This document shows, in pieces, positions 16,245 through 47,025 of a stretch of DNA of 51,939 bases. Origin of the DNA: an uncultured Eubacteriales bacterium. GTDB lineage: Bacteria > Bacillota > Clostridia > Lachnospirales > Lachnospiraceae. A program made the position numbers and the translations under genes. The stretch lies in contig OMVU01000025.1 in NCBI GenBank assembly GCA_900314565.1, positions 1 through 51,939 on the forward strand, written 5' to 3'. The notes below the pieces were generated by a model that saw only the letters and a list, made by a program, of their open reading frames with translations, did not search any database and was not told where the DNA came from. Within the stretch, counting starts at the first letter, position 1, and the number at the start of each line of letters is the position of its first letter.

Positions 16245-16368
16245 GTGTTACAGAATAGGCGCTTGCGAAATTCTGTGCGAAATGGAATTGTTTGGGCACG
16301 GAAGCCGTTTGAATGTTCAAACAATTTCCATGAAGCACAGACTTTCGCAATTGCCCGGTGTTACAGAA
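16245..16368 (+). mobile_element. MITE-like palindromic element family 1, copy A, with 11-bp direct repeats
   Basis: GTGTTACAGAA occurs exactly at 16245-16255 and 16358-16368. Between them lies a 102-bp imperfect palindrome beginning TAGGC and ending GCCCG. Its arms contain TTGCGAAATTCTGTGC and, on the other side, GCACAGACTTTCGCAA, with ATGGAATTGT/ACAATTTCCAT further in. The loop is about 17-25 bp longer than in copies B and D. Direct repeats of this length, different at each copy, are what a transposition event leaves. The element sits inside the csoR-copA operon, ending 20 nt before the copA start. Confidence 0.75.
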
Positions 16369-16388
16369 CGGGAAAAGGAGAATCATCA

Positions 16389-19055
16389 ATGGATCAATAT
16401 ACAGTTACGGGAATGAGCTGCGCCGCCTGCCAGGCCCGCGTTGAGAAAGCCGTGTCGAAGGTGCCCGGCGTCTCGGCGTGTTCGGTGAGCCTTCTCACGA
16501 ACTCGATGGGCGTGGAGGGAAGTGCCGCACCGGCGGATATCATCAAGGCAGTGACAGATGCAGGTTACGGCGCACAGGCGAAGGGAGCCGAGAAGACTTC
16601 CGGCGGTCTCTCAGCAAAACTTGCCGCGGAGGAGGACGCCCTGAAGGACCGGGCGACACCGGTTCTTAAGAAACGTCTCATCGCATCTCTGGGATTTCTC
16701 GCGGTGCTCATGTATTTCTCGATGGGGCATATGATGCTGGGGCTTCCGCTCCCTTCATTTTTCGAAGGGAATCACGTGGCGATGGGGCTTCTGCAGCTCC
16801 TTCTTGCTGGAATTGTCATGGTCATTAACCAGAAATTCTTTATCAGCGGTTTTAAGAGCCTCGCCCACGGTGCTCCGAATATGGACACGCTGATTGCGCT
16901 GGGCTCGTCAGCGGCTTTCATTTACTCGACAGCCATGCTCTTTGTCATGACGCGGTCGCAGGTCGACGGAGATTCTCAGGCGGTCATGAACTGCATGAAG
17001 GAGTTCTATTTCGAATCCGCCGCGATGATCCTCACGCTCATCACGGTCGGGAAAATGCTGGAAGCCTACTCCAAAGGGAAGACGACGAACGCGCTCAAAA
17101 GCCTCATGAAACTTGCCCCGAAGACGGCCAACGTGATCCGGGACGGGAAAGAAGTGACGGTTGACATCGATGACGTTCGGAGGGACGACATTTTCGTCGT
17201 GCGCCCGGGTGAAAATATACCGGTCGACGGTGTGGTCGTAGAAGGGACAAGCGCAGTCAATGAGGCTGCGCTGACCGGCGAGAGCCTGCCCGTGGACAAG
17301 TCCGTCGGGGACGAAGTTTCTTCGGCGACGCTCAATCAGTCCGGCTTCTTAAAGTGCAGGGCGACCCGGGTCGGAGAAGATACGTCTCTGGCTCAGATCA
17401 TTCAGATGGTCAGCGACGCGGCTGCAACGAAAGCACCGGTCGCCAGACTTGCGGATACGATCTCCGGTTACTTTGTTCCTGCGGTCATTGCGATCGCTGT
17501 CGTGACAACGGTGATCTGGCTGCTTGTCGGGCAGACAGTCGGCTTTGCGCTTGCCCGCGGTATCTGCGTGCTTGTCGTCAGCTGCCCCTGTGCACTGGGG
17601 CTTGCGACCCCGGTCGCGATCATGGTCGGAAACGGCGTCGGAGCGAAGAACGGTATTCTGTTCAAAAATGCCGGTGCGCTGCAGGAGACCGGAAATATTC
17701 AGATCGCTGCCCTGGATAAGACCGGAACTATTACGAGCGGTGAGCCGCGCGTGACAGATGTTTTTGCTGCGGACCGGGTCCTTTTCAAAGGTTCCTCCGC
17801 CCCGGCATCCGGGGAAGAAGGTCTTTCGGATCGGAACAGGGCTGATTTGCTGAATGGAGAACGGTTGGCTTCTTCAGAGGAGGAACTTCTGAGAGCAGCC
17901 TGCTCGCTCGAGGCAAAGAGCGAGCATCCTCTCGCAAAAGCTGTCCTTGCGTATGGCAGGGACAGACAGATTTCCGCGGAGGAGGTCACAGGATTTTCTG
18001 CTCTGCCGGGGAACGGCCTGCAGGCCGAACTGGGAAATAAGAAACTGATCGGCGGGAGCCTGAAGTTCATTTCACGGAAGGTGAAGGTGCCGGAAACGGT
18101 CAGGAAGAAAGCGGAAGAGTACGCGGAATCCGGAAAGACGCCGCTGCTTTTCGCGGCTGACGGAGTGCTGCTCGGCATCATCGCGGTCGCGGACACCATC
18201 AAAGCGGACAGCGCGGAAGCGATCCGTGAGCTCCGGAACATGGGAATTCATGTGGTCATGCTGACCGGAGATAATGCGAAGACTGCGGAGGCGATCGGCA
18301 GAGAGGCCGGCGTTTGCGAGGTCATCGCAGGTGTCCTCCCGGATGGTAAGGAGAGCGTGATCCGGGAGCTTCAGCAGTTCGGTAAAGTCGCGATGATCGG
18401 TGACGGCATCAATGATGCGCCGGCACTTACCCGCGCGGACATCGGCATCGCGATCGGTGCGGGTACGGATGTTGCGATCGACGCCGCGGATGTCGTCCTC
18501 ATGAAGAGCTCACTTCGCGACGCGGCAGGAGCGGTCCGGATCAGCCGGGCGACCTACAGAAATATCCTGGAAAATCTCTTCTGGGCGCTCATATACAACA
18601 CGCTCCTCATTCCTCTGGCGGCAGGTGCCTGGGCTCCCCTTTTCGGGCTTACGATGGATCCGATGTTCGGAGCGCTCGCGATGAGCCTGTCCAGTTTCTG
18701 TGTAGTATCCAATGCGCTTCGGCTGAACCTGCTGAAGGTCCACGACGCGTCAAAAGATAAAAAACTTAAAAATGCAGTGCAGCCCGGTGAGGACGGTGCC
18801 CTGCTGGAAAAAACGGATTCGTCTTCGGACGGGAAAGGAAATGAGATGACAAAGACAATTACGATCGAGGGAATGATGTGCCCGCATTGTGAGGCGACGG
18901 TAAAGAAAGCGCTTATGGCTCTGCCGGAGGTCGAGGATGCTCAGGTCAGCCATGAGGCTGGAACTGCAGTCGTCACGCTGAATGCCGATGCGGAGGACGC
19001 AGTGCTTGCGAAGGCTGTTGAGGATAAGGACTATAAGGTCCTGGGAATTGTCTGA
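16389..19055 (+). CDS. copA: Copper-exporting P1B-type ATPase with N- and C-terminal heavy-metal domains
   Basis: The 888-residue membrane pump exports Cu(I). Order: N-terminal HMA domain ([15 protein letters not shown], from residue 8), six to eight membrane helices, actuator TGES (about 297), the [11 protein letters not shown] metal path (about 397), phosphorylation site DKTGTITSG (about 443), HPLAKAV of the nucleotide domain, and [20 protein letters not shown] (about 671). After the last helices a linker leads to a second, CopZ-like HMA domain (residues 820-888, [14 protein letters not shown]). A C-terminal HMA is uncommon in CopA. AAAGGAG lies 8 nt before the chosen ATG at 16389; an upstream extension runs through the palindromic element and is rejected. 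Expression should follow the CsoR-controlled promoter. Confidence 0.93.
18830..18848 (+). promoter_or_regulatory. Possible internal translation start for a free CopZ-like domain
   Basis: Inside copA, GGGAAAGGAAATGAG leads directly to an in-frame ATG at 18846 that begins the C-terminal metal-binding domain. The AAAGGA is 7 nt before it. This would yield a 69-residue CopZ-like chaperone from the same transcript. Inference only. Confidence 0.4.
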
Positions 19056-19089
19056 AAGACAGGCAGGAAGCTGTAAGGCCGTAAAGGCT

Positions 19090-19195
19090 GTCTTTCGAAG
19101 GGATCTTATTCCGGGAGTCGTCTGAGGTCCGGATATGCGAAAAGACCGTCTTTCGGAGGAATCTTATGCCGGGAGATGACTGAGGTCCGGATATG
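19090..19195 (+). repeat. Imperfect 58-bp tandem repeat after copA
   Basis: GTCTTTCGAAGGGATCTTAT at 19090 recurs as GTCTTTCGGAGGAATCTTAT at 19148, and both copies go on to TGAGGTCCGGATATG (ending 19137 and 19195). Period 58 bp, two copies, in the otherwise empty copA downstream region. Confidence 0.8.
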
Positions 19196-19202
19196 AAGAA
19201 TG

Positions 19203-19259
19203 AAAGGCTGTGAGAGAGTCGGAGAGCAAGTTTCTTCGTCTGCTTTTACAGCCTTTTTT
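19203..19259 (+). terminator. Terminator of the csoR-copA operon
   Basis: AAAGGCTGT (19203-19211) pairs with ACAGCCTTT (19248-19256), with a long 36-nt loop and a T6 run. From here to 19521 no gene is visible on either strand; the rest is AT-rich upstream sequence of the amylosucrase gene. Confidence 0.6.
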
Positions 19260-19521
19260 CGCCTTTTAAGACGCAGAAATCCTCTGATGTGAATTTATGA
19301 TGAATCGCACAGTGATTCTGTTTTTCGGTTTTTTTGCCCGAAAAATGCGGTTTTCGAAGCCTGCTGCCGACTTCTTCGAGCGGCTTCGAATGTGTCATGA
19401 GCAATGTGGTACTTTCGCGCAAAAGCATTTTTACAGCAAAAAAACAGGCTGTAGAAAGTGCACAATTATCGACAGGAACCTTGATGAAAATCACGAAAGT
19501 TAAAAAAAGAATTAAAAGAAT

Positions 19522-19550
19522 TTGCAAAAAAATTGTCAGTAAATTATAGT
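19522..19550 (+). promoter_or_regulatory. Putative promoter of the amylosucrase gene
   Basis: TTGCAA (19522-19527), 17-nt spacer, TATAGT (19545-19550), 64 nt before the ATG, in a strongly A-rich stretch that could serve as an UP element. Confidence 0.55.
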
Positions 19551-19614
19551 TAAACAAAGTGCTTTGATGATTCGATTCATCTGTGGAAATTTCAAACAGT
19601 GCCGGGAGGGAAAA

Positions 19615-21867
19615 ATGATCGATCAGAACTGGGAACCGAAGTTTATTGAGCGCCTGAAGGTCCATTATGACGAGATGAAATGGCTGTACAGTGAACTCTA
19701 CAACAATGATCAGCAGGCATTCGATTATTTTGTGACAATGCTGCACAACTACTATGCAGACAGAGACCCGCTTCTTCGGGAGTGGGATGACGCAAGAACG
19801 CTTGTACCGGACTGGTACAAGGGAAATGATATGCTTGGCATGATCATTTACGCGAATTGCTTCGCCGGAAACCTGAAGGGAGTTCATGCGCATCTGGATT
19901 ATATCAAGGAGTGCGGCGCGAACTTTATCCATCTGATGCCGCTCCTTGAGAGCCCGAAGGACCGCAGCGACGGCGGTTATGCGGTCTCTGATTTCAGAAA
20001 AGTCCAGCCGGAACTCGGCACGATGGAAGATCTGTATGAGCTTTCGAAGGACTGCCATGCGAAGGGACTCAGCGTCTGCCTTGATTTCGTCATGAATCAC
20101 ACGAGTGAGGATCACGAGTGGGCAAAACGCGCCCGCGCCGGAGAGAAGGAGTATCAGGACAGATATTTCTTCTATGATGACTGGACGATCCCCAATGAAT
20201 TTGAGAAGACAGTTCCGCAGGTCTTCCCGACGACTGCTCCCGGAAACTTTACCTGGTGCGAGTCGGTCGGAAAGCCGGTCATGACGATGTTCTATCCGTA
20301 TCAGTGGGATCTCAATTACCGCAATCCTGTCGTGTTCAATGATATGACGGCGAACATGCTGAACCTCTGCAATAACGGTGTCGACATTATCCGTCTGGAT
20401 GCTGTTCCATATATCTGGAAGCAGCTCGGCACGGATAACCGCAATCTGCCGCAGGTCCATACGCTCGTCAGGCTGATGCGCATGGCAGCGGAAGTCGTCT
20501 GCCCGGGCACGCTCCTTCTCGGCGAGGTCGTTATGGAGCCCTCCAAGCTGGCTCCTTATTTCGGAACCGTAGACAAGCCGGAATGCCATATGCTCTATAA
20601 CGCGACGACGATGTGCACGACCTGGAATACAGTCGCGACCAAGGATGTCAGACTTCTGAGAAAGACTCTGGATGACGTATTCGCGCTTCCGAAGCAGTTC
20701 GTTTTCCTGAATTATCTGCGCTGCCATGACGATATCGGCTGGGGCCTTGACTTTAATTTCCTGAAGCAGTTCGGGATCGAGGAAGTTCCGCACAAGAAAT
20801 ATATCAATGATTATCTGAAGGGGGCTTACTGGGGAAGCAATTCCCGCGGCGAGCTCTACAATGACGATCCGCGCCTCGGCGATGCGCGTCTGTGCGGCAC
20901 GACTGCCTCTCTCTGCGGGATTGAGGCGGCTGAGTACGAGCAGAATGAGTGGAAGCTCGGGGAAGCCATCAAGCTTGACGTGATGCTGCATGCATTCCTG
21001 CTCACGCAGACCGGTATCCCGGTTCTCTACAGCGGCGATGAGATCGGCCAGAAGAACGATTATTCCTATCACAATGACCCGATCAAGTGCGAGGACAGCC
21101 GTTACCTGCACAGAGGAAACTTCAACTGGGACGAGGCAGCGCTCCGCACAGATCCGAATACGAGGCAGGGAAAACTGTTCAACGCGCTTCGGAAGATCGA
21201 GGAGATCCGCGCGGAGTATGAGCTCTTCGATACAGATGCGGATGCATGGACGCTCGATACATACAATGACAACATCCTCTGCATCGGAAGATACTACAAG
21301 GGACAGAAGCTTCTCGGTCTCTTCAATTTCGGAGACACTGATCAGACCGCATGGATCAATGAGGAAGAAGATTACATTGACCTTATGACCGGAAAACGCC
21401 GCGAGGCGCGTGCTGTCGGGGTTCCTGCCCATGATTTTGCGTGGCTTTTCTATGACTTCAATCCGAAGCCTGTGAAGACGGATGTACAGGAGGCTGCTCC
21501 TGTTCCGGAGAAGACCGAAGAGCCGGCGGAAGCTCCTGCTCCTGCGAAGGCAGAAGAAGTGAAGGCTGAGGCTCCGGAAGCTCCTGCGGAGGAAAAGGCA
21601 GCTGTAAAGGAGGAGAAGCCTGCAAAGAAGACGACCCGGAAGAAGACAGTGAAAGCTGCGGAAGCAGCTGAGGAGAAGCCTGCAAAGAAGACAGCGAGAA
21701 AGAAAACTGCAAAAGCCGCTGAAGCAGCAGCTGAGGAGAAGCCTGCGAAGAAGACGGCAGGAAAGAAGACAGCAAAAGCTGCGGAAGCAGCGGCTGAGCC
21801 TGCAAAGAAAACGACCAAAAGAACTTCAAAAAAAGCAGCTGAGAAGAAGGGGAATAGCGAAGCATGA
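19615..21867 (+). CDS. Amylosucrase (GH13_4-like) with a histone H1-like Lys/Ala-rich tail
   Basis: Residues 1 to about 620 match the amylosucrase family, which builds alpha-1,4-glucan from sucrose: DGGYAVSDFRKVQPELGTME, FVMNHTSEDHEWAKRA, PYQWDLNYRNPVVF, IIRLDAVPYIWKQLGTDNRN (nucleophile Asp), LLGEVVM (acid Glu) and LRCHDDIGWGL (transition-state Asp). From about 623 a Pro/Ala/Glu linker follows, then from about 668 to 750 three to four repeats built on KPAKKT-x-KKT-x-KAAEAAAE, ending KKAAEKKGNSEA. This strongly basic tail resembles histone H1/AlgP-type tails and is not part of known amylosucrases. GGGAGGG precedes the ATG. The stop overlaps the next gene. No signal peptide, so cytosolic. Confidence 0.87.
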   Translation: MIDQNWEPKFIERLKVHYDEMKWLYSELYNNDQQAFDYFVTMLHNYYADRDPLLREWDDARTLVPDWYKGNDMLGMIIYANCFAGNLKGVHAHLDYIKECGANFIHLMPLLESPKDRSDGGYAVSDFRKVQPELGTMEDLYELSKDCHAKGLSVCLDFVMNHTSEDHEWAKRARAGEKEYQDRYFFYDDWTIPNEFEKTVPQVFPTTAPGNFTWCESVGKPVMTMFYPYQWDLNYRNPVVFNDMTANMLNLCNNGVDIIRLDAVPYIWKQLGTDNRNLPQVHTLVRLMRMAAEVVCPGTLLLGEVVMEPSKLAPYFGTVDKPECHMLYNATTMCTTWNTVATKDVRLLRKTLDDVFALPKQFVFLNYLRCHDDIGWGLDFNFLKQFGIEEVPHKKYINDYLKGAYWGSNSRGELYNDDPRLGDARLCGTTASLCGIEAAEYEQNEWKLGEAIKLDVMLHAFLLTQTGIPVLYSGDEIGQKNDYSYHNDPIKCEDSRYLHRGNFNWDEAALRTDPNTRQGKLFNALRKIEEIRAEYELFDTDADAWTLDTYNDNILCIGRYYKGQKLLGLFNFGDTDQTAWINEEEDYIDLMTGKRREARAVGVPAHDFAWLFYDFNPKPVKTDVQEAAPVPEKTEEPAEAPAPAKAEEVKAEAPEAPAEEKAAVKEEKPAKKTTRKKTVKAAEAAEEKPAKKTARKKTAKAAEAAAEEKPAKKTAGKKTAKAAEAAAEPAKKTTKRTSKKAAEKKGNSEA

Positions 21868-22688
21868 GCAAAAAGCTGATCTTTCTTGATATAGACGGGA
21901 CTCTGACAGTTGCGGGCTCCAATGAACCGCCGGCCAGCGCCCTCATAGCGATCAAAAAAACGCAGGCGCTGGGAAATATGGTCTTTCTCTGCACCGGCAG
22001 GAATTACGCAATGCTGAGCCCGCTTCTTAAATTCGGTTTTGACGGTATGGTCGCTACAGCCGGAGGCTATCTGACAGTCGGAGACGAGGTGATCTATGAC
22101 AAGCCGATGACACCGGAGCAGACAAAGACTGCGCTCGAGACGCTTCATGCGGGAGGTGTCTTCTGCACGATCGAGGCGAAGGATGCTACTTATGGGGATG
22201 AGGATCTGGGGAGCTTCCTTTCAGGTCAGGGAGAGGGAAATTCTGAAATTGAAAGATGGAGAAAAGCACTCTCCTCCAGCCTGAATATCCGACCGATGAG
22301 TGAGTATGACGGACGTCCGGTCTATAAAGTCGTCATCATGTGCCTTGAGGACAGTCAGCTTGACCGTGCGAGAGCAGCACTTGAAGATCAGTTCCAGTTC
22401 GTCATTCAGGAGGTCAGCGCGCACAGCTGCCTGAACGGGGAACTGATCAACCGGGATTTTGACAAGGGACGGGGGATTCTCCGGATCTGTGAAAAACTGG
22501 GTGTTCCGGTGGAAGATACATTCGGGTTCGGCGACAGCATGAATGACCTTGAGATGATCGAGACAGTAGGAACCTCTGTGTGCATGGAGAACGGAGCCGA
22601 AGCGCTGAAGAAGATCAGTGATTACGTATGCCCGTCTGTGGAGAATGACGGACTTGCGGAGGCTTTCCGCCATTTCGGTCTCGTGTGA
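21864..22688 (+). CDS. Cof-type HAD-IIB family phosphatase
   Basis: The 274-residue hydrolase shows HAD motif I FLDIDGTLT, motif II in FLCTGRN, the Lys region in INRDFDKGRGI and motif IV FGFGDSMNDLEMIE. The large C2-type cap between motifs II and III marks Cof/IIB enzymes, which act on sugar phosphates and similar small phosphates. Its ATG overlaps the amylosucrase stop (ATGA), so translation is coupled. A role in handling a sugar phosphate near sucrose metabolism is plausible; the substrate is not readable from sequence. Confidence 0.85.
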   Translation: MSKKLIFLDIDGTLTVAGSNEPPASALIAIKKTQALGNMVFLCTGRNYAMLSPLLKFGFDGMVATAGGYLTVGDEVIYDKPMTPEQTKTALETLHAGGVFCTIEAKDATYGDEDLGSFLSGQGEGNSEIERWRKALSSSLNIRPMSEYDGRPVYKVVIMCLEDSQLDRARAALEDQFQFVIQEVSAHSCLNGELINRDFDKGRGILRICEKLGVPVEDTFGFGDSMNDLEMIETVGTSVCMENGAEALKKISDYVCPSVENDGLAEAFRHFGLV

Positions 22689-22865
22689 TCTGTGACGCAG
22701 CCCGGCAGGAACGTCTGAAAGTACAGGCAGAAGTCCGGACGAGGTACAGAAGGAATCTTCGTCCGTAAGAAATGCAGCCTGCGTAAAGAGCATTGTATGG
22801 AATGGTTTTCAAAGACCTCGGATATGAAAAATGTGCTTTTGTGCAGGTTTTATGGGAGCTTTGTG

Positions 22866-22894
22866 AATAGTTTATTATGTGAATGTAAACTATT
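22866..22894. promoter_or_regulatory. Inverted repeat upstream of the PTS promoter
   Basis: AATAGTTTA (22866-22874) and TAAACTATT (22886-22894) are exact inverted copies separated by 11 bp, 14 nt before the -35 box. Likely a binding site for a dimeric regulator. No regulator gene is adjacent. Confidence 0.5.
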
Positions 22895-22907
22895 TATAAA
22901 TTAAAAC

Positions 22908-22936
22908 TTGTAAAGCACTTAATTATTAGGTATAAT
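22908..22936 (+). promoter_or_regulatory. Promoter of the PTS gene
   Basis: TTGTAA (22908-22913), 17-nt spacer, TATAAT (22931-22936). The roughly 115-nt leader behind it contains a small stem TCTGCC/GGCAGA (about 22972-22994). No RAT-type antiterminator sequence is recognised. Confidence 0.7.
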
Positions 22937-23056
22937 TACTATACTTGCTCGCATAAGTTCATCTGCCAGGGGTGTATTGCTTCGGCAGACGGACAAAAGC
23001 GGGAAGTGTGTATAGTGCTGCAACTGTTAAGTTTCCAGAATAAGGGAGGAAAAATT

Positions 23057-25045: not shown

Positions 25046-25086
25046 TTAAAAAGAGACGGCTGTTTTTGCAGCGAAGTGAAATTTTG

Positions 25087-25115
25087 GCCCGGGTCCGTAA
25101 GGATCCGGGCTTTTT
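25087..25115 (+). terminator. Terminator of the PTS gene
   Basis: GCCCGGGTCC pairs with GGATCCGGGC (one mismatch) around a GTAA loop, followed by TTTTT. Confidence 0.88.
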
Positions 25116-25231
25116 ACCATCTTAAAAGAAGGTCCTGAAGCTTCCTCGATCCGAAGCGCTGTTTTTGGCATGACTGTTGATCCATGCATGGTAATAACTG
25201 CCTTTCTGCGGGAAGGACGCCTTGCCCCGGG

Positions 25232-25260
25232 TTGTATTTGCTTCCCCATCTGTGTTATAC
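25232..25260 (+). promoter_or_regulatory. Promoter of the lipoprotein gene
   Basis: TTGTAT (25232-25237), 17-nt spacer, TTATAC (25255-25260). Confidence 0.5.
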
Positions 25261-25277
25261 TGACAAAGGGGAAATAA

Positions 25278-25297
25278 TTATAACAGGGGAGTTATAA
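25278..25297 (+). promoter_or_regulatory. Small hairpin with the Shine-Dalgarno in its loop
   Basis: TTATAAC (25278-25284) and GTTATAA (25291-25297) form a perfect 7-bp AU-rich stem. The loop is AGGGGA, the only ribosome binding site of the lipoprotein gene, whose ATG follows 3 nt later. Confidence 0.5.
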
Positions 25298-25300
25298 CAT

Positions 25301-26524
25301 ATGAAAAAGATTGTGGCGCTGCTTCTGACAGCGGCTGTTCTTATGTCTTTTTACGGATGCAGGGGAGGAAGGGAAGATATGACCGGTGATGATTCGTCGG
25401 TCGAATCCGGAGCGAGAAGCGAAGAAAAGGCAGCTCTGGATGAGGTCAGAAAATCTGACCTAGCATGTCCCGATAAGACCGTCGCTCTGACGGAGGAGGC
25501 TGCGAGGCTCTGGCTGTTGGCAGGCGGAAAGCTCTACGCAGTCTGTGACAGTGAAAATGAAATATCCGGTCTTTCCGGAAACGAGAAAAAACTCGGTAAA
25601 AGCGGTGTCGTTAATGCGGAGGAAGTCCTGAAGCTTTCGCCGGATCATGTGCTTCTGGATGACTCCCTTCCGAATGCGAAGGAGCTTAAGGAAGCCTTGT
25701 CAAATGCCGGAATCAGGTGCGAGGACACCACGATCACTTCATTTGACGACTATTTTTCCACGATAAAGAACTTCTGTATGATGACGAAAAATGCAGAAGC
25801 TTATGAAAAAGCTGCTCTGAATGTACGGGGCAGACGGACTGCGATCATGCGGAATGCTGCTAACGAGATGCCTGATCTGAAGCTCTCTCTCGGTAAGAAA
25901 AAATCGAAGGAGTCCGGGGCCTCCGGTACAGCAGACGGGAAAGAGTCCGGGACGGAGAGATCCGACAACGTTACATTTGAGCTGATCAGGGTCAGTGCGG
26001 ATGGAGCGGCGATCGCATCAAATAATGACTGGGTCTGCAGCATGCTGGAGGATCTGGGACTGGTCAATCTCTGTGCGGAAGAGGAACCGGTCGCTGTGAC
26101 CTGGAAGAATGCGGAGAAGAGCAGGACGACGGCTTCTCATGCCGCCGAATCCGGAACTGCGGAATCCTCCAATACGGAATCCGGTTTATCCGGAGAAGAG
26201 AGCGCGCCCTCTGAGGCGCAGAATACCGGCACAGAATCCGGGGCGAACGGGGAGCAGGTCTCCTCTGCGAATGACCGCGAGGCTTTTGCGAAAGAGATCG
26301 GGAAGAACCCGGATTTCATTTTCGTGATCTACTGCGAAAGTGAAAAACAATATAGGAAGGAGTTTGAAGAGCTGACAGACTCGATCAGGGGATGGAACAG
26401 TCTTAAGGCTGTAAAGTCCAATCATATGATCACGCTGCCCAAAGAATCGTTCTGTACGCTCCCGAATGATGCATGGGATCTTCCCATGGAGTACCTGTAT
26501 CAGTCGATTTTCCTTATGGGATAA
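25301..26524 (+). CDS. Lipoprotein, ABC-type (Fe/B12-like) substrate-binding protein, orphan
   Basis: The 407-residue protein begins with a lipoprotein signal (lipobox FYGC, Cys20), so it should be membrane-tethered outside. The rest follows the class III binding-protein layout: PDKTVALTEEAARLWLLAGG, VVNAEEVLKLSPDHVLLDDS, a long helix (TKNAEAYEKAALNVRGRRTA), and NPDFIFVIYCESEKQYRKEF in the second lobe. Two serine/glutamate-rich inserts interrupt the C-lobe (about 200-225 and 275-325, with repeated TESG/ESG words), atypical for this fold. No permease or ATPase gene lies nearby, so it either works with a distant transporter or has another job. The gene has its own promoter and a stem with the ribosome site in the loop. 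Confidence 0.65.
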   Translation: MKKIVALLLTAAVLMSFYGCRGGREDMTGDDSSVESGARSEEKAALDEVRKSDLACPDKTVALTEEAARLWLLAGGKLYAVCDSENEISGLSGNEKKLGKSGVVNAEEVLKLSPDHVLLDDSLPNAKELKEALSNAGIRCEDTTITSFDDYFSTIKNFCMMTKNAEAYEKAALNVRGRRTAIMRNAANEMPDLKLSLGKKKSKESGASGTADGKESGTERSDNVTFELIRVSADGAAIASNNDWVCSMLEDLGLVNLCAEEEPVAVTWKNAEKSRTTASHAAESGTAESSNTESGLSGEESAPSEAQNTGTESGANGEQVSSANDREAFAKEIGKNPDFIFVIYCESEKQYRKEFEELTDSIRGWNSLKAVKSNHMITLPKESFCTLPNDAWDLPMEYLYQSIFLMG

Positions 26525-26572
26525 TTTATTCTTCATCGCGCAATACTCGTGATTTTAATCGTGAAATATGCG
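26525..26572 (+). repeat. Dispersed hairpin repeat family 2, truncated copy 2
   Basis: Starts TTTATTCTTCATCGCG and follows the family for about 48 bp (CAATACTCGTGATTTTAATC and on to ATATGCG), then diverges. It lies directly after the lipoprotein stop. Confidence 0.7.
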
Positions 26573-26588
26573 TTACTTTTGATGCGGG

Positions 26589-26616
26589 CCGCCAGAGGTT
26601 TTTTGATCTCTGGCGG
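26589..26616 (+). terminator. Terminator after the lipoprotein gene
   Basis: CCGCCAGAG pairs perfectly with CTCTGGCGG, 10-nt T-rich loop, followed by TTCTCATATT, a modest T-rich tail. Confidence 0.6.
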
Positions 26617-26668
26617 TTCTCATATTCATTATCACAGATCAACGCTATAGAAAATGAACGGAGGAATA

Positions 26669-28775: not shown

Positions 28776-28883
28776 TCTATAAATACCAGGCTCCTGCGAA
28801 ACTCTGTGCGAAATGGAATTGTTTGAACAATTCATACAATTTCCATGAAGCACAGACTTTCGCAATTGCCTGTCTATATATAC
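28776..28883 (+). mobile_element. MITE-like palindromic element family 1, copy B, with near-perfect 11-bp repeats
   Basis: The 86-bp element (28787-28872) starts CAGGC and ends GCCTG. TCTATAAATAC precedes it (28776-28786) and TCTATATATAC follows it (28873-28883), 10 of 11 identical. Arms: CTGCGAAACTCTGTGCGAAA and GAAGCACAGACTTTCGCAA, with ATGGAATTGT/ACAATTTCCAT inside. It begins 20 nt past the protease stop. Confidence 0.72.
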
Positions 28884-28902
28884 AGCAGAAAGGAGGTTCC
28901 GG

Positions 28903-30109: not shown

Positions 30110-30253
30110 CGGCCGCGGCAGCTGCTTTTTCCTGCAGGCGTCAGGGACGCCGGATCATTCTTGAAAATGCGTAAAAGAAGTATCTGTTCTTATGCGATTT
30201 CCCGGGTTTCTTTTTCGGGAAACAGCGGCATATTATTGTACAGACCGATATAT

Positions 30254-30434
30254 TTTATTCTTCATCGCGCAATACTCGTGATTTTAATCATGAGATACGC
30301 GCGCAAAGTGAAATCTGGCTTCATCGTGAGTACAATTTCGCGATGAAGAATAAAAGCCTCCGGCGGATCGCAGACGTGCGCAATGGAAGGCGCTTACGCG
30401 CCGCGCACGTCGCGGCAAGAACGCCGAGGCGTTC
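30254..30434 (+). repeat. Dispersed hairpin repeat family 2, full-length copy 3
   Basis: This copy is the cleanest. TTTATTCTTCATCGCG (30254-30269) and CGCGATGAAGAATAAA (30339-30354) are perfect inverted ends of a 101-bp core. The core contains a competing stem in which a second CTTCATCG (about 30319-30326) can pair with the same right arm. Behind it are GACGTGCGC/GCGCACGTC with a nested GGCGC/GCGCC hairpin (30373-30411) and AAGAACGCC/GGCGTTCTT (30417-30436), the last looking like a terminator. It fills the gap between the lipid kinase and the aldolase gene. Confidence 0.8.
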
Positions 30435-34956: not shown

Positions 34957-35033
34957 GTGTAAAATGCCGAGGAACTGCCGGCTGAAGGTTCCGATTGCGC
35001 TGCGTCTCCCCCACGAGAAAGAGGAGGATAGGT

Positions 35034-36618: not shown

Positions 36619-36708
36619 TGATCGGCTGATCGCTCAGTATCCGGAATCGGAACTGGCAGCATATCCTGCCCGGGAGTCCGGCAGGGTTAATTGAACAGTA
36701 AGCGTTAT

Positions 36709-36742
36709 AAGACGGATCTTCAGGGATCCGTCTTATTTTGTT
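36709..36742 (+). terminator. Terminator of ftsEX
   Basis: AAGACGGATC and GATCCGTCTT form a perfect 10-bp stem around TTCAGG, followed by ATTTTGTT. Confidence 0.85.
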
Positions 36743-36849
36743 GCCCATACTGAGGGGATTGCGAAGCACGGCTCTTTATGGAAATTGTTTGAATTATTCA
36801 CACGATTTCATTTTGAGCAGCGTTTCGCAATCGTCTGGTTGCCCATACT
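36740..36849 (-). mobile_element. MITE-like palindromic element family 1, diverged copy C, with exact 12-bp direct repeats
   Basis: GTTGCCCATACT occurs at 36740-36751 and again, exactly, at 36838-36849. Between them is an 86-bp palindrome (GATTGCGAAG outward to CGTTTCGCAATC, with GGAAATTGTTTGAA in the middle). Read on the minus strand it aligns with copies A, B and D (CAGAC-GATTGCGAAAC start, ACAATTTCCAT in the right arm), but with about a third of positions changed, so it is older or another subtype. It lies directly after the ftsEX terminator and 57 nt before uvrB. Confidence 0.65.
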
Positions 36850-36905
36850 ATGAGAAAGGAATATACTGATACTGTATACACAATGAGATGAAATGAGGTT
36901 TTAAT

Positions 36906-39002: not shown

Positions 39003-39008
39003 TGAAAT

Positions 39009-39188
39009 ATGAGCGGAAATATGTGTGATACCTGCGTCAATTACGTTTATGACGAGGACGATGAGTCCTGGGTCTGCTGCGTTGACATGGACGAGGATGA
39101 TTATGTGAGAATGCTGACATCTCCGAAGCCGATCTGCGTATTCTACAGGAACGATGACGAGTATGCCGTCGTGCGGCACCAGATGTAA
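39009..39188 (+). CDS. DUF6472-like small cysteine-rich acidic protein
   Basis: This 59-residue frame begins MSGNMCDTCVNYVYDEDDES, continues with WVCCVDMDEDDYVRML, and ends YRNDDEYAVVRHQM. The spacing CxxC...C...C with the YVYDED core and the YxxxDEYxxVRxQM tail match my memory of the DUF6472 family in Clostridia. It begins 6 nt after the uvrB stop and has weak ribosome-site sequence, so coupling to uvrB translation is likely. The cysteines could bind one zinc. Function unknown. Confidence 0.75.
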   Translation: MSGNMCDTCVNYVYDEDDESWVCCVDMDEDDYVRMLTSPKPICVFYRNDDEYAVVRHQM

Positions 39189-39263
39189 CTGTCGGATAAG
39201 GATGGGTGAACGGGCAGGCAGCGAAGCGGATCCTGATTATGTATTCAGAGAGGAGGAGAGAAA

Positions 39264-40358
39264 ATGGGAGCAAAGAAAGCAGGGAAGAAAAAGAAAATAG
39301 TGCTGCGTGTGATCTTAGGGATCCTGATTGCACTGATCCTGATCGTCGGAATTTATTTTCTGTATGTATTCAAGACCTATCACAGAATAGAGGATCAGCA
39401 GGATCTCGAGGTCACAAAAGGCAGTACGACGGAAGCCTGTGCGGTCGGGAAGGAGTATAATGTCATTTCCTATAATATAGGGTTCGGCGCATACACACCG
39501 GATTTCTCGTTCTTTATGGACGGGGGAAAGTCGTCCTGGGCGAAGAGCAAGGAGAGCGTGAATGAGACCGTCACCGGCGCTGCGGAGCTCGTCCGGAGCC
39601 TGGATCCGGAGATCGTGATGTTCCAGGAGATCGACACGGACGGGACGAGAAGCTATCATGTCGATCAGAAGAAGCTCATCGACGGGATCCTTCCCGAGTA
39701 TACGAATGTCTTCGCTGTGAATTATGACTCTCCGTTCCTCATGTATCCTCTGACACAGCCGCACGGGAAGAACCATGCCGGAATCGGTACCTATACGAAG
39801 TTTGATATTACATCGGCTCTTCGCCGGAGCCTCCCGATTTCGGAGAGTCTGAGCAAGCTGGTCGATCTTGACCGCTGCTACTCCGTTTCCCGGATCCCGG
39901 TGGAGAACGGGAAGGAGCTCGTCGTCATCAACGTGCATCTGTCCGCTTACGGTAACTCCGATGCGATCCGGGAAGGGCAGAAGAACATGCTGAAGGAGGA
40001 GATGGCTGCGGAGATCGCTGCAGGCAATTACCTGATCGTCGGCGGAGATTTCAACCATGATCTTACTGCGCCGGATGATCAGACGGATGTCGCAGGCTGG
40101 GCTTACCCGTATCCGCGCTCTTATCTGCCGGAGGGTGTGCATTTTTGCCTGGATGCACTGTCGCAGGAGGAGCTTTCGGCGCTCAAGCCGACCTGCCGGA
40201 ATGCAAATGAGCCCTACGATCCGGCCACGAGCGAGCAGTTCGTGATTGACGGAATCATCATTTCCGACAATATCGAGCAGATCAGCTACCACACCGTGGA
40301 AAATGAATACCTGTACTCCGATCATAATCCGGTCGAACTGGTCTTCCGCCTGAAATGA
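39264..40358 (+). CDS. Membrane-anchored endonuclease/exonuclease/phosphatase (EEP) family protein
   Basis: The 364-residue protein has a Lys-rich start and one membrane helix (about 14-36, VILGILIALILIVGIYFLYV), putting the enzyme domain outside. EEP motifs are present: VISYNIGFG, VMFQEID (metal Glu), VVINVHLSAYG, LIVGGDFNHDL (Asp and Asn) and YSDHNPVELVF (catalytic Asp-His). This fold includes nucleases, phosphoinositide and sphingomyelin phosphatases. The surface location and an aromatic-rich segment suggest a phosphodiester or phospholipid substrate, but that is inference. GAGGAGAG is just before the ATG. Confidence 0.82.
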   Translation: MGAKKAGKKKKIVLRVILGILIALILIVGIYFLYVFKTYHRIEDQQDLEVTKGSTTEACAVGKEYNVISYNIGFGAYTPDFSFFMDGGKSSWAKSKESVNETVTGAAELVRSLDPEIVMFQEIDTDGTRSYHVDQKKLIDGILPEYTNVFAVNYDSPFLMYPLTQPHGKNHAGIGTYTKFDITSALRRSLPISESLSKLVDLDRCYSVSRIPVENGKELVVINVHLSAYGNSDAIREGQKNMLKEEMAAEIAAGNYLIVGGDFNHDLTAPDDQTDVAGWAYPYPRSYLPEGVHFCLDALSQEELSALKPTCRNANEPYDPATSEQFVIDGIIISDNIEQISYHTVENEYLYSDHNPVELVFRLK

Positions 40359-40400
40359 GTTTGAGAGAGGCCCGGAACAGTAAAATTTGAGCAGGGATAC

Positions 40401-40429
40401 TTCACGGGACGATCCGGTTGTATTATAAT
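40401..40429 (+). promoter_or_regulatory. Promoter of the SPFH gene
   Basis: TTCACG, 17-nt spacer, perfect TATAAT (40424-40429), 66 nt before the ATG. Confidence 0.6.
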
Positions 40430-40495
40430 GAGTGGGAAGTTTTTGCTCTTTCTTTTCAGAGCGAATGACATTTCTATGTGAAACGGAGGTTTCTT

Positions 40496-41542
40496 ATGCA
40501 GCTTTATATGATTTTACTGCCTGTTATTCTGTTCGTACTTATTTTGCTTCTGTCGTGCATCAAGGTTGTGCCGCAGGCCAATGCCTACGTCATTGAGTTC
40601 CTGGGAAGCTATAAGTCTACCTGGGAGCACGGCCTTCATCTTAAGATCCCGTTCGTCGAGCGGATCGCGGGAAAGATCTCTCTGAAGGAGCAGGTCTGTG
40701 ACTTCGCTCCGTCGAATGTTATCACCAAGGACAATGTTTCGATGAAGATCGACACGGTCGTTTATTTCAAGATCTTTGACCCGAGGCTCTATACGTACGG
40801 CGTAGACCGCCCGATCAGCGCGCTTGAGAATCTGAACGCGACCACCCTTCGTAATATCATCGGCGGTATGGAGCTTGACCAGACACTGACAAGCCGTGAT
40901 ATCATCAACTCTCAGATGCAGCAGATCCTGGATATCGCAACGGATGCCTGGGGAATCAAGGTCACCCGTGTTGAGCTGAAGAACATCATTCCTCCTGCCG
41001 AGATCCAGAACGCGATGGAAAAGCAGATGAAGGCGGAGCGCGAGAAGAGACAGACGATCCTTGAAGCGGAAGCCCACAAGGAATCCGTTGTAGCCCGTGC
41101 CGAGGGTGACAAGCAGGCCAGAATTCTCGCCGCTGAGGCGGAGAGGGACGCGCAGATCGCCCGTGCACAGGGCCGCGCGCAGTCGATCATGCTCGTGTAT
41201 CAGGCGGAAGCCGATGGTCTAAAAGCGCTGAAGGAAGCTCAGATTGATGATGCGGTCCTCAAGCTGAAGGGTATTGAAGCGCTGAAGGATGTTTCCGACG
41301 GCCGTGCGACGAAGATCTACATGCCGACGGATCTTTCGGGAGTCATCTCCTCGCTGGGTCTTCTCTCGGAAAGTATCGGGATTGGGGATGCAACGCCGAT
41401 CGACCGTTCTCCGCGTCCGATGCAGGCGCCTGCTGCAGACCCGTGCTGCGATGAGCCGGAGAGAACACCGGAGACTGTCAGGATGAAGAAGGATGAACAG
41501 CATCGACAGATGAGCGTACCGGTGCGCAGACCGGAGAACTGA
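40496..41542 (+). CDS. SPFH/band-7 (stomatin-like, QmcA type) membrane protein
   Basis: The 348-residue protein starts with a membrane helix (about 5-22), followed by the band-7 domain (VVPQANAYVIEFLGSYKSTW, then HLKIPFVERI, NVSMKIDTVVYFKIFDPRLY). A long charged helical region follows (about 175-250, MEKQMKAEREKRQTILEAEA), the flotillin-type coiled coil that drives oligomers. Family members scaffold membrane microdomains and modulate FtsH-type proteases. A GTG at 40478 would add six residues, but CGGAGG sits between it and the ATG at 40496, so the latter is used. Confidence 0.9.
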   Translation: MQLYMILLPVILFVLILLLSCIKVVPQANAYVIEFLGSYKSTWEHGLHLKIPFVERIAGKISLKEQVCDFAPSNVITKDNVSMKIDTVVYFKIFDPRLYTYGVDRPISALENLNATTLRNIIGGMELDQTLTSRDIINSQMQQILDIATDAWGIKVTRVELKNIIPPAEIQNAMEKQMKAEREKRQTILEAEAHKESVVARAEGDKQARILAAEAERDAQIARAQGRAQSIMLVYQAEADGLKALKEAQIDDAVLKLKGIEALKDVSDGRATKIYMPTDLSGVISSLGLLSESIGIGDATPIDRSPRPMQAPAADPCCDEPERTPETVRMKKDEQHRQMSVPVRRPEN

Positions 41543-41743
41543 AGCCGGAAAGGAAAGGCTTTTCCATAAGGTGAGTCAGAGGGACTCAGCCCATAAAAGA
41601 ATTACATACTAAGAAATGAGAGAGCATCATATGCGGAAGACAGGCTTTTCGATGTCATCCGTGTATGGTGCTTTTTTACGGTCTTTGTTTTCGTATATGG
41701 TTTTTGTAATTTTTGTGTCCTTTCAAATCTTTTGAGATTTTTG

Positions 41744-41772
41744 TTGACAAGACTTTAGACAAAGAGTATATT
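41744..41772 (+). promoter_or_regulatory. Promoter of the hrcA heat-shock operon
   Basis: TTGACA (41744-41749), 17-nt spacer, TATATT (41767-41772). The 200 nt upstream, after the SPFH gene, are T-rich and hold only small stems such as TGAGTC/GACTCA. Confidence 0.75.
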
Positions 41773-41784
41773 ATCACTTAGATG

Positions 41785-41811
41785 TTAGCACTCCAACATG
41801 CTGAGTGCTAA
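41785..41811. promoter_or_regulatory. CIRCE operator (HrcA binding site)
   Basis: TTAGCACTC, 9-bp spacer, GAGTGCTAA: a perfect CIRCE element, directly after the -10 box. HrcA dimers bind here and GroE-dependent folding of HrcA sets repression. It is the only CIRCE in the window, so hrcA, grpE and dnaK probably share it. Confidence 0.97.
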
Positions 41812-41836
41812 CAAACAGAGAAAGAGAGTGATCGCC

Positions 41837-42925
41837 TTGGAGCTTACAGAGAGAAAACGGAAAATTTTATATGCGATTATCCGGAACTATCTTGAGACCG
41901 GTGAACCGGTCGGGTCCAGAACGATCTCCAAGTACACGGATCTGAATCTGAGTTCCGCGACCATCCGGAATGAGATGTCTGACCTGGAGGAGATGGGATA
42001 TATCATTCAGCCCCATACCTCCGCCGGCAGAATCCCTTCCGACAAGGGCTACAGGCTTTACGTCAATGAACTTGTCGAAGAGAAGACTGCACAGGTCTCT
42101 GCGATGAACAGCCTGATGATCGCGAAGACCAACAGGATGGAAGAAATCCTGAAGCAGGTCGTAAGACTGCTCGCGTCCAGAACGAACTACACGACCATGA
42201 TTTCGGCACCCTCTTACAGGGGGAACAAAGTGAAGTTCATCCAGCTGAGCAGACTCAACGCGCGCCAGCTCCTCAACGTTGTCGTCATAGAGGGCAATGT
42301 TGTAAAGAACCACATCCTGGATCTCGATGAGGAGATATCCGAAGAGCAGGTCCTGAAGCTGAATCTCCTTCTCAATACAAGGCTGAACGGCCTTACGCTT
42401 GCGGACATCAATCTGGGTCTTATTTCCAATATTAAGGAAGAAGCCGGTTCGCATGTGCAGGTCGTCAACGATGTTCTCGATACGATCGCGGATGTGATCA
42501 GAGCCGAGACCGATGAGAACATGGAGATCTACACGAGCGGAGCGAATAACATTTTCCGCTATCCGGAGCTCGCAGATACCGAACGGGCGAGTATGCTGAT
42601 CAATACGATCGAGGAAAAGAGCATACTTGCGGATTTCATCAAGGATTCGGAACAAAAAGAACAGAGCGGTGAGACCGGGATCAAGGTCTACATCGGCGAG
42701 GAAGGTCCTGTGGAATCCATGAAGGACTGCAGCGTCGTCACAGCGACTTATGAGCTGGGAGACGGGCTTCAGGGTACAATTGGTATTATCGGGCCTAAGC
42801 GTATGGATTACGAGAAGGTCATGAATAATTTAAAATCATTCAAGGTGTCGCTGGGCCAGCTCTTCAGGGACAACAGAGTGGTGGATCAGGAAGACACTGA
42901 GAATGGGAAAGCGAGGGAACCTTAA
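41837..42925 (+). CDS. hrcA: Heat-inducible transcription repressor HrcA
   Basis: About 362 residues. Winged-helix start (ELTERKRKILYAIIRNYLET, GEPVGSRTISKYTDLNLSSA, TIRNEMSDLEEMGYI, QPHTSAGRIPSDKGYRLYV), then the GAF-like dimer domain (INTIEEKSILADFI) and the final VIGP-like segment IGIIGPKRMDYEKVM. The frame is open from an ATG at 41798, but that codon lies inside the CIRCE element, so I use TTG 41837, which gives the usual M-E-L-T-E-R-K-R start with GAGAG 8 nt upstream; GTG 41828 is an alternative. First gene of the heat-shock operon, so autoregulated. Confidence 0.92.
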   Translation: MELTERKRKILYAIIRNYLETGEPVGSRTISKYTDLNLSSATIRNEMSDLEEMGYIIQPHTSAGRIPSDKGYRLYVNELVEEKTAQVSAMNSLMIAKTNRMEEILKQVVRLLASRTNYTTMISAPSYRGNKVKFIQLSRLNARQLLNVVVIEGNVVKNHILDLDEEISEEQVLKLNLLLNTRLNGLTLADINLGLISNIKEEAGSHVQVVNDVLDTIADVIRAETDENMEIYTSGANNIFRYPELADTERASMLINTIEEKSILADFIKDSEQKEQSGETGIKVYIGEEGPVESMKDCSVVTATYELGDGLQGTIGIIGPKRMDYEKVMNNLKSFKVSLGQLFRDNRVVDQEDTENGKAREP

Positions 42926-42928
42926 GGT

Positions 42929-43675
42929 TTGAGCACGGAAGAAAAGATGGCTTCGGAAGAGACTTTTGATGAAAATGAAAAGATGAATGCCGGAGAAACA
43001 AAGACAGAACCGGCGGCAGACGGCGCCGGTACCGAAGAAGCTCCGGAGGAAAATACGGTATCTGAAGAGACTCCTGAAGAAAAAGCGGCCTCAGAGGGAT
43101 CTGAGGAAATAGACGCGGATCCCGGAGAGACGGCCGGGCAGGAAGCTTCGGAGGAAGAACAGGCAGAAGACAGAGAGCCGGAAGAGGAATCAGACAAAGT
43201 GGGTTTGTTTGGCGGCAAAAAGTTAAAAAAAGAACTTGAGAAGAAAGCAGAACAGATCAGCGAATTAACTGACCGCAATATGAGGCTCATGGCGGAATTC
43301 GACAATTACAGGAAGCGCACCGAGAAGGAAAAAGCCGCAATGTACGGCATGGGTGCGAAGGATGTCGTCGAGAAGATCCTGCCGGTCATAGATAATTTTG
43401 AGAGAGGCTTTTCTCTGGTCGCGGAGGAGGATATGGAAGACCCCTTCACACAGGGAATGGAAAAGATCTACAAGCAGTTCCTTACCGTACTTGAAGGCCT
43501 TGGCGTAACGCCGATCGAGGCGGTGGGAAAGGAATTTGATCCGAATTATCACAATGCGGTGATGCATGTGGATGATGAGAATTACGGTGAGAATATCGTT
43601 GTGGAGGAATTCCAGAAAGGATACCTTTACAAGGATTCTGTCGTCAGACATTCCATGGTAAAGGTCGCCAACTGA
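42929..43675 (+). CDS. grpE: Nucleotide exchange factor GrpE
   Basis: 248 residues. The first 85 or so are an acidic, Glu/Ala-rich disordered extension. Then comes the long GrpE coiled coil (LKKELEKKAEQISELTDRNM, MAEFDNYRKRTEKEKAAMYG) and the beta domain ending VEEFQKGYLYKDSVVRHSMV. It releases ADP from DnaK. The start is uncertain: TTG at 42929, 3 nt after the hrcA stop and with only AAGG before it, or ATG at 42947, with GGAAG before it. Both keep the domain intact. Overlap-close spacing suggests coupling with hrcA. Confidence 0.92.
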   Translation: MSTEEKMASEETFDENEKMNAGETKTEPAADGAGTEEAPEENTVSEETPEEKAASEGSEEIDADPGETAGQEASEEEQAEDREPEEESDKVGLFGGKKLKKELEKKAEQISELTDRNMRLMAEFDNYRKRTEKEKAAMYGMGAKDVVEKILPVIDNFERGFSLVAEEDMEDPFTQGMEKIYKQFLTVLEGLGVTPIEAVGKEFDPNYHNAVMHVDDENYGENIVVEEFQKGYLYKDSVVRHSMVKVAN

Positions 43676-43791
43676 GAAAGCTTCTTAAGGATAGATCCGC
43701 TTAAGAACAAAGCCTTCTCAGTGAGATAAAGTGAGTTGAGCGGGGAACCGCTTTACTATAAATAAGAAATACAGATGTTTTTGTATAATAG

Positions 43792-45687
<1,896 letters not shown>

Positions 45688-45703
45688 ATAAGTAAATCAC
45701 AAC

Positions 45704-45739
45704 GGCTCCCGCTTTTTGCGGAGTGGGAGCCGGTTTTTT
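45704..45739 (+). terminator. Terminator between dnaK and dnaJ
   Basis: GGCTCCC and GGGAGCC form a 7-bp stem (14-nt loop), followed by GG and TTTTTT. It should lower dnaJ expression relative to dnaK. Confidence 0.75.
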
Positions 45740-45781
45740 CATGTCCGCACTGCGGAAGCAAATCTGAAAGGGATTTTCCAA

Positions 45782-46876
45782 ATGGCAGAGAAAAGAGATT
45801 ACTACGAGGTACTCGGTGTAGAGAAGAACGCCACTGATGACGACCTGAAGAAAGCATACAGAAAGCTCGCAAAAAAGTATCACCCGGATGTCAACCCGAG
45901 CGAAGAGGCTGCGGAGAAGTTCAAGGAGGCATCGGAGGCCTATTCGATCCTGTCTGACCCTCAGAAGAGGCAGCAATACGACCAGTTCGGGCACGCTGCG
46001 TTCAGCGGCGCCGGCGGTGCGGGCTATGGCGGTTTCGATTTTAACAGCTCGGGGATGGGTGACATTTTCGGAGATATCTTCGGGGATCTCTTCGGAGGAG
46101 GCAGGACTTCTTCCAGGAGGTCGAATCCGAATGCACCGATGCGTGGCGCGAATGTTCGGACAAGCGTCAGCATCAGCTTTGAGGAAGCGGTCTTCGGGTG
46201 CACGAAGCAGATCGAGATCAATTTCCGGGAGGAATGTCCGACCTGCAAGGGCACCGGAGCGAAGGCCGGCACATCTCCGGAGACCTGTTCGCGATGCCAC
46301 GGCACAGGGCGTGTCGTCACGACGCAGCAGTCTATCTTCGGCATGATGCAGACGGAAACAGTCTGCCCTGAGTGCCGGGGAGGCGGGCGGATTATCCGCG
46401 AGAAGTGCCCGGACTGCAACGGAACAGGGTACAGGACGAAGAAGCAGAAGATCGACGTCCAGATCCCGGCAGGTATTGACAACGGAATCGCAGTGCGCGT
46501 CAAGGATAAGGGCGAGCCCGGCGTGAACGGCGGCCCGAGAGGAGATCTTCTTGTCGAAGTCCGTGTATCGCGTCATCCGATCTTCCAGCGGGATGACATG
46601 GATCTGTACTCGACGGCGGCTGTCTCTTTTACCAAGGCGGCACTGGGCGGTAAGATCCGCATTAAGACGATCGATGGAGATGTCGAATATGAAGTCAAGG
46701 CCGGGACACAGACGGATACGAAGATCCGCCTGAGAGGCAAGGGCGTTCCGTCTGTAAGGAATTCCAAGCGAAGGGGCGATCACTATGTGACGCTCGTCGT
46801 GCAGGTCCCGACGAAGCTTACAAGAGAGCAGAAGAAGGCACTGAAGAGTTACGCGGAGGCGATGGGAGAGTCCTGA
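45782..46876 (+). CDS. dnaJ: Chaperone DnaJ (Hsp40)
   Basis: 364 residues. J domain [20 protein letters not shown] with the HPD triplet in KKYHPDVNP, Gly/Phe-rich part (about 70-115), four zinc-finger repeats ([32 protein letters not shown]) and the C-terminal substrate-binding barrels. Stimulates DnaK ATPase. AAAGGGA lies 8 nt before the ATG; an upstream extension runs through the terminator and is rejected. Confidence 0.96.
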
Positions 46877-46926
46877 CGCCTGCGTGTCCGGAACCCAATG
46901 TTCATGTTCTCATAAACATTGCAGCT

Positions 46927-47025
46927 TAAGAAATCGACAGGCTTTTGCGAAACTCTGTGTGAAATGGAATTGTTCATGCAATTTCCATGAAGCACAGACT
47001 TTCGCAACTGCCTGTAAGAGACTGA
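46927..47025 (+). mobile_element. MITE-like palindromic element family 1, short copy D, with degraded direct repeats
   Basis: The 77-bp element (46938-47014) runs from CAGGC to GCCTG and is almost identical to copy B except for a shorter loop (TGTTCATGCA). Flanks TAAGAAATCGA (46927-46937) and TAAGAGACTGA (47015-47025) match at 8 of 11 positions in exactly the place where the other copies have direct repeats. It lies 61 nt after the dnaJ stop. Confidence 0.68.

Follow-up and report, generated by a model that had tools for sequence, protein, structure and literature searches.

Bacterial mobile elements often limit the harm they cause by using rare sites, tRNA ends, terminators or repeats, and insertion sequences (ISs) of the IS110/IS1111 type encode both a recombinase and a guide RNA. 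Specific target choice with the help of a bridge or seek RNA is outlined for the latter in parts of PMC11187229 and PMC11208160, and some ISs are described in a portion of PMC1525189 as inserting sequence-specifically into repetitive extragenic palindromic (REP) sequences, that is, into extragenic DNA. Bacterial miniature inverted-repeat transposable elements (MITEs) are characterised in general terms (PMC3049150, in part) as short, non-coding sequences with inverted-repeat ends, a strong hairpin and a target-site duplication (TSD), which are presumed to be mobilised in trans. For the IS4 family, one section of PMC2266710 gives TSDs of 10-12 bp (IS231), 10-13 bp (IS4) and 8-10 bp (IS4Sa). The element considered here is a short palindromic sequence present in four copies in a stretch of 51,939 nt (hereafter the window; contig OMVU01000025.1 of the uncultured Lachnospiraceae assembly GCA_900314565.1). 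Overall, it is best explained, with a probability of about 0.85, as a MITE that has a Shine-Dalgarno-like target and is moved in trans.

Most of the clear cases follow one geometry: the target is cut once at exactly 4 nt before a DNA motif resembling GAAAGGAG and once 9-15 nt (mostly 10-12) further upstream, and the interval is duplicated; both orientations of the element are used. This motif corresponds to the Shine-Dalgarno core. The offset of +4 was fixed from the window, where the motif occupies this position in 4/4 copies (7, 8, 7 and 7 of 8 positions matching), and was then asked of the rest of the genome, which makes the test less circular. Seventy-seven copies entered this test, namely 76 two-ended copies from the genome of the window and window copy 3, which was added by hand here and in the analyses of motif position and of TSD versus motif; 32 were left out for having no clear abutting TSD. 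A motif of at least 6/8 was found exactly 4 nt past the TSD edge in 36 of the 45 TSD-supported copies, whereas every other offset from -4 to 13 had it in 0-2 copies. Outside the window the figure is 33/42, with 1.2% expected by chance. When positions are counted from the element end, a match of at least 6/8 to the 8-mer GAAAGGAG starts at 14, 15 or 16 nt in 49/77 copies, and for TSD lengths of 10, 11 and 12 bp the motif is mostly at 14, 15 and 16 nt, respectively. Since the position of the motif thus tracks TSD length (Spearman 0.83, n = 40), it is mainly the far edge that varies, and the near edge keeps its spacing to the motif: among the 42 copies in which a TSD is combined with a motif match of 6/8 or better, 35 have 4 nt between the two. 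The orientation of the element relative to the motif is balanced (19R:17L).

In other metagenome-assembled genomes (MAGs) the motif stands at +4 in 8/9 copies, or in 11/13 when overlaps are resolved in another order (the misses being L241 and L309); six of these 13 are shared with the genome of the window (five by flank test, L235 by eye), which leaves 5/7 independent cases. Within the window itself 77 motif sites of at least 7/8 were counted. Of these, 21 lie outside open reading frames (ORFs) called with Shine-Dalgarno guidance, and four of the 21 adjoin elements; with first-start ORF calls, 17 lie outside ORFs and three adjoin elements, because copy 1 then falls within an over-long ORF. The original prediction, which was made from the window only, regarded the flanking repeats as specific to each locus. 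They do differ from site to site, but most of them share the motif at a fixed offset, which had been overlooked.

The duplications were scored against a null in which left and right flanks of different copies were paired. The TSD exceeded 99% of this null in 51/76 two-ended copies and 95% of it in 63/76. The lengths of the 51 were 6 bp (1 copy), 9 (5), 10 (19), 11 (15), 12 (9), 13 (1) and 15 bp (1), and 35 of them were exact. For the identification of empty sites, 36 joined flank pairs were compared with RUG13128 (G041), RUG11020 (G042), SRR873600_bin.3 (G043) and a further genome, G005. The element is absent from RUG13128 at L164, L188, L200, L212, L159 and L190 and from G005 at L220, and each of these seven orthologous empty sites contains one target copy, in some cases with base changes; the remaining queries yielded shared insertions, unclear results or no match. 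At window copy 4, G005 has a conserved right flank and no element (by eye), the left flank not being alignable. The difference in element presence and absence between the genome of the window and RUG13128 points to recent mobility. MITE-like mobility, as originally proposed, with target duplications of 10-12 bp, is supported by many copies, by the null and by the empty sites; the two findings that had been named as contrary to it were not encountered, since both flank copies were seen at 0/7 empty sites and the copies across the genome do not lack duplications. A GACGCAGAATTC-like stretch was also seen to recur next to some insertion sites.

The genome of the window (G000) comprises 4.2 Mb in 191 contigs. 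Using window copy 2 as query, 66 matching pieces were obtained from it, some of them counted twice, once per strand (the scoring covered 40 of the 163 first-look candidates), and the two end patterns, with up to 3 mismatches, matched 95 left and 95 right ends as against 0 for the reversed control. Far beyond the four copies initially noticed, the palindromic family spans 117 places in this genome. Together with window copy 3, 118 stretches were analysed: they contain the two-ended copies (60-251 bp) as well as two further short copies of 41 and 47 bp (by eye), and 43 of the 118 loci hold no two-ended copy by the rule used, being one-ended, cut by a contig end or more diverged. Eleven copies of 240-251 bp gave a consensus of 247 bp. 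This full-length form of approximately 247 bp, with the ends CAGGC...GCCTG, is almost wholly palindromic; its arms, the terminal inverted repeats, agree in 24 of their 30 terminal positions, both of its strands fold into one extended hairpin (-117 and -101 kcal/mol) and it has at least one stop in each of the six frames. Shorter copies lack middle parts of this form. At L194, RUG13128 has the same insertion as the genome of the window plus an internal deletion, so that this shorter form, at least, results from a deletion that followed insertion; one-ended family copies occur in the genome of the window too, hence truncation is not absent. Elements or element pieces adjoin each other at L159 and L190, and at L159 (G000:C105:69068-70099) a second copy has inserted next to the first, at the right end of the latter, RUG13128 having the first only. 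In five copies (L121, L159, L173, L218, L224) the terminal bases are changed jointly (TAGGC...GCCTA), which marks either a sub-lineage or the copying of terminal bases between the ends.

The element matched 2 of 41 genomes, namely the genome of the window itself and G005. An exact 20-mer scan of genome contigs returned 12 stretches, distributed among RUG13128 (9), SRR873600_bin.3 (2) and RUG11020 (1), three MAGs titled Lachnospiraceae, Clostridia and Clostridiales. The RUG names presumably denote rumen MAGs, and SRR873600_bin.3 is probably the same genome as G005, as judged from identical match coordinates. Copy 2 (86 bp) had no match in plasmid and phage collections, nor did the two end patterns match anything in viral contigs.

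Many copies stand directly before a Shine-Dalgarno sequence of the AAAGGAG type, which may be on one flank or the other, and thus ahead of genes that they leave unbroken. According to a rule based on ORF and Shine-Dalgarno sequence, 56/76 copies have a start codon within approximately 80 nt (28 per side), at a median of 30 nt from the element end. The start codon is at most 40 nt away in 49/76 copies, as compared with 7.3% (n = 6764) or 10.8% (n = 7388) of the intergenic positions in the window; the two controls differ in the start-codon rule, ORF starts being chosen by Shine-Dalgarno match in the second. A distance of 28-31 nt is seen in 34/76 copies and at 1.0 and 1.5% of the intergenic positions. 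The first control used (7.2% of 6864) took the earliest possible start of each ORF, and leaders were thereby hidden. In the logo of the insertion sites the letters GAA preceding AGGA reach 71, 79 and 95% and the final G is weak (57%), whereas an average taken over the Shine-Dalgarno regions of 70 genes gives 46, 41 and 47% at the same three positions and 84% at the following G. The logo (GAAAGGA) is therefore shifted 5' relative to the average AGGAGG, with the proviso that only the flanking columns are fairly comparable, since the two alignments were core-anchored separately and some of the 70 genes are themselves next to element copies. The motif is also used where no start codon follows by the rule, as at L124, where it goes with a terminator-like hairpin much as at window copies 2 and 4. 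This use without a start codon, together with the differences between the logos, suggests that DNA, not translation, is read at the target, the DNA motif coinciding with the Shine-Dalgarno core.

The fact that most copies precede likely start codons would be expected as well if insertion were a ribosome- or mRNA-linked process, taking place where ribosomes bind and not at a DNA motif. However, at L124 and at window copies 2 and 4 the motif used lies in or before a terminator-like hairpin, with no start by the rule, and the logo departs from the average Shine-Dalgarno sequence within the columns that may be compared; a process of this kind is thus considered quite unlikely. Insertion anywhere in AT-rich intergenic DNA, followed by selection that leaves copies upstream of ribosome-binding sites, is disfavoured and seems very improbable. 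The loss of harmful copies would likewise enrich intergenic positions, and the cut bases are indeed AT-biased (88% A/T at position -1), yet selection would not set the offset to a single nucleotide (+4 in 36/45, others 0-2), motif sites lacking a start codon show the same offset, and the motif-to-cut distance is constant in 35/42 copies though TSD length varies. The least probable of the three alternatives, with hardly any weight left to it, is target-primed reverse transcription in the manner of short interspersed nuclear elements (SINEs), in which a motif-positioned nick would prime complementary DNA of a hairpin RNA and leave variable TSDs. One sequence-fixed and one variable cut, with TSDs of 9-15 bp, are what such a process would produce, but priming from a single nick should fix the orientation, which is balanced, and the two-ended copies have precise inverted-repeat ends.

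As a MITE, the element would be a non-autonomous DNA transposon with terminal inverted repeats, mobilised in trans by a transposase encoded elsewhere. The inverted-repeat ends, the TSDs and the 19:17 balance of orientations fit DDE-type (end-symmetric) transposition, and the putative transposase may be a DDE enzyme resembling those of the IS4 family, making cuts staggered by roughly one helix turn within a transposition complex anchored at the motif. Since GAAAGGAG and the Shine-Dalgarno core of this genome overlap, the element would land in 5' leaders; the near TSD copy and the 4 bases stay beside the motif, so that the last 14-16 nt before the ribosome-binding site would remain intact and the insertion might be tolerated. 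The pairing of the palindrome with itself may contribute to this tolerance.

Several observations weigh against the MITE explanation. No clear abutting TSD is present in 32/77 copies, the motif at +4 is missing from 9/45 TSD-supported copies, and the rule used assigns no start codon to 20/76 copies. At L151 and L210 the element of RUG13128 (L294 and L298, respectively) points the other way, and the orientation may therefore not be frozen; our guess is an independent insertion into the same site, flipping in place being possible as well. Furthermore, a partial search, covering the three transposase families PF01609 (DDE_Tnp_1), PF00872 and PF13808, revealed neither an autonomous copy nor a transposase flanked by such ends. 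In the genome of the window, the surroundings of 11 PF01609 loci and one PF00872 locus were scanned for the ends and for inverted repeats, and none has such an end pair; nor has any of the 9 PF01609 loci and one PF13808 locus scanned in RUG13128, where PF00872 was not searched. G005 gave 0 matches to PF01609 and PF13808, PF00872 again not being searched there. The lack of DDE_Tnp_1 leaves an IS4-type helper without support in that genome: either the IS4 guess is weakened, or the helper is gone or unassembled. One must bear in mind, however, that MAGs lose repeats and that the search was incomplete.

The end pattern had 323 matches in the genome of the window versus 64 for the reversed control, and no IS-sized end pair stood out among the matches listed. 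In 23 genomes of the same genus it gave 9 single matches in 9 genomes, with no second family end near any of them. Mobilisation in trans had originally been proposed on the grounds that the window has no transposase. In the partial search none belonging to the element was detected, nor was the full IS with CAGGC/GCCTG ends and a transposase, for which a search had been suggested. At approximately position 1500 of L244 (G023), a match to CAGGC(N3)TGCGAAA is followed by ACAATGTATGT...ACATACAATGG, a hairpin-like inverted repeat; another species may here hold a distantly related element.

The mismatches kept in the stem (C facing C, GAA facing GAA) had been attributed to selection on the hairpin or to recent common descent. 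They are real, and since they belong to the consensus of 75 copies, common descent explains them and selection is not needed. With 24 paired positions in each of these copies there are 1800 cells, of which 1622 have the consensus on both sides, 150 are changed on one side (83 + 67) and 28 on both sides; 18 of the latter stay complementary, as against 3.8 expected and a maximum of 10 in 1000 shuffles. Templated correction of quasi-palindromes is enough to account for the linked arm changes. This pattern does not suffice as evidence of selection on the hairpin, as one-sided changes dominate (150/1800) and arm-to-arm copying fits the linked ones. The four window copies fold better than dinucleotide shuffles on both strands (z from -4.2 to -9.8), and no match to Rfam covariance models was obtained in the window at the gathering score.

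All four copies and their flanking repeats (11/11, 10/11, 12/12 and 8/11) were recovered where the original prediction had placed them (Table 1). Three of the copies (1, 2 and 4) are direct, whereas copy 3 is inverted and 75% complementary over 87 nt. At copy 1 the motif AAAAGGAG has Shine-Dalgarno spacing to the ATG at 16389 of a heavy-metal P-type ATPase gene, and the motif of copy 3 lies approximately 45 nt ahead of a UvrB-like ORF as listed. A terminator-like hairpin follows the motif of copy 2, and the motif of copy 4 sits within the stem of one; neither has a start codon by the ORF-and-Shine-Dalgarno rule. The 8/11 repeat of copy 4 is weak by itself (score 3.5 versus 3.0 and 5.0 for 95% and 99% of the null) and is strengthened by the motif at the same fixed offset.

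Table 1. Element copies in the window with their target-site duplications (TSDs) and target motifs.
Feature	Position	Strand	Remarks
TSD of copy 1, left, GTGTTACAGAA	16245..16255	+	11/11 match
Copy 1, 102-bp palindromic element	16256..16357	+	direct copy, folds; same insertion in RUG13128
TSD of copy 1, right	16358..16368	+	11/11 match
Target motif of copy 1, AAAAGGAG, 7/8	16373..16380	+	4 nt past TSD
TSD of copy 2, left, TCTATAAATAC	28776..28786	+	10/11 match
Copy 2, 86-bp palindromic element	28787..28872	+	direct copy, folds
TSD of copy 2, right	28873..28883	+	10/11 match
Target motif of copy 2, GAAAGGAG, 8/8	28888..28895	+	4 nt past TSD
TSD of copy 3, left, GTTGCCCATACT	36740..36751	+	12/12 match
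Copy 3, diverged 86-bp element in opposite orientation to copies 1, 2 and 4	36752..36837	-	folds
TSD of copy 3, right	36838..36849	+	12/12 match
Target motif of copy 3, GAAAGGAA, 7/8	36854..36861	+	4 nt past TSD
TSD of copy 4, left, TAAGAAATCGA	46927..46937	+	8/11 match
Copy 4, 77-bp palindromic element	46938..47014	+	direct copy, folds
TSD of copy 4, right, TAAGAGACTGA	47015..47025	+	8/11 match
Target motif of copy 4, GAAAGGCG, 7/8	47030..47037	+	4 nt past TSD

Other repeats are present in the window as well. A second palindromic family (TTTATTCTTCATCGCGCAATACTCGTG...) occupies 5285-5390, 26521-26572 (partial), 30253-30355 and 50767-50848; a further repeat, GCAGACGTGCGC...AAGAACG(C/T)CGAGGCGTTC, comes after two of these copies and is related to one matching many places in RUG13128. 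Tandem repeats with a 29-bp unit, TGACAGAGAATTCCTGTGATCCTGATCTC, extend over 50900-51044, and others with a 44-bp unit over 48129-48291.

More tentatively, and at somewhat less than even odds, a dedicated transposition system may use the Shine-Dalgarno consensus as an integration address, making one cut 4 nt from GAAAGGAG and a second, floating one about a helix turn away, whereby a safe harbour ahead of a large proportion of the genes would be reached and mRNA leaders would acquire hairpins. An element that reads a ribosome-binding motif has a safe site at many genes. Its insertions would turn 5' leaders into long hairpins, and such strong structures could change mRNA stability or expression; sister strains having the same gene with and without the hairpin would provide a natural experiment on leader structure. 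The transposase, if found, might serve as a tool for inserting DNA at a set distance ahead of genes.

Compared with IS110/IS1111, the present element is too short for a recombinase gene. The REP-targeting ISs, as far as the cited portion describes them, have a repeated palindrome as target, whereas the target here is a ribosome-binding-site motif. Judged by the consulted section on the IS4 family, the TSD of this element, mostly 10-12 bp, likewise corresponds to about one helix turn. Its ends fit by eye the loose IS4Sa consensus CA------T given there, which fixes three positions only, and CAGGC...GCCTG is unlike the ends of IS231 (CAT...), ISH8 (CAT...) and IS4 (-AATR). Titles and abstract openings in the open-access literature yielded no description of an element targeting Shine-Dalgarno sites. 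With RUP and BOX of pneumococcus, the Correia elements and Nezha, the element shares all the general features of bacterial MITEs listed at the outset, and the MITE kind itself is already known. What is novel here is the Shine-Dalgarno-like target: unlike in RUP, BOX, Correia and Nezha, one edge of the TSD, which is mostly 10-12 bp long, is fixed 4 nt from a Shine-Dalgarno-like motif.

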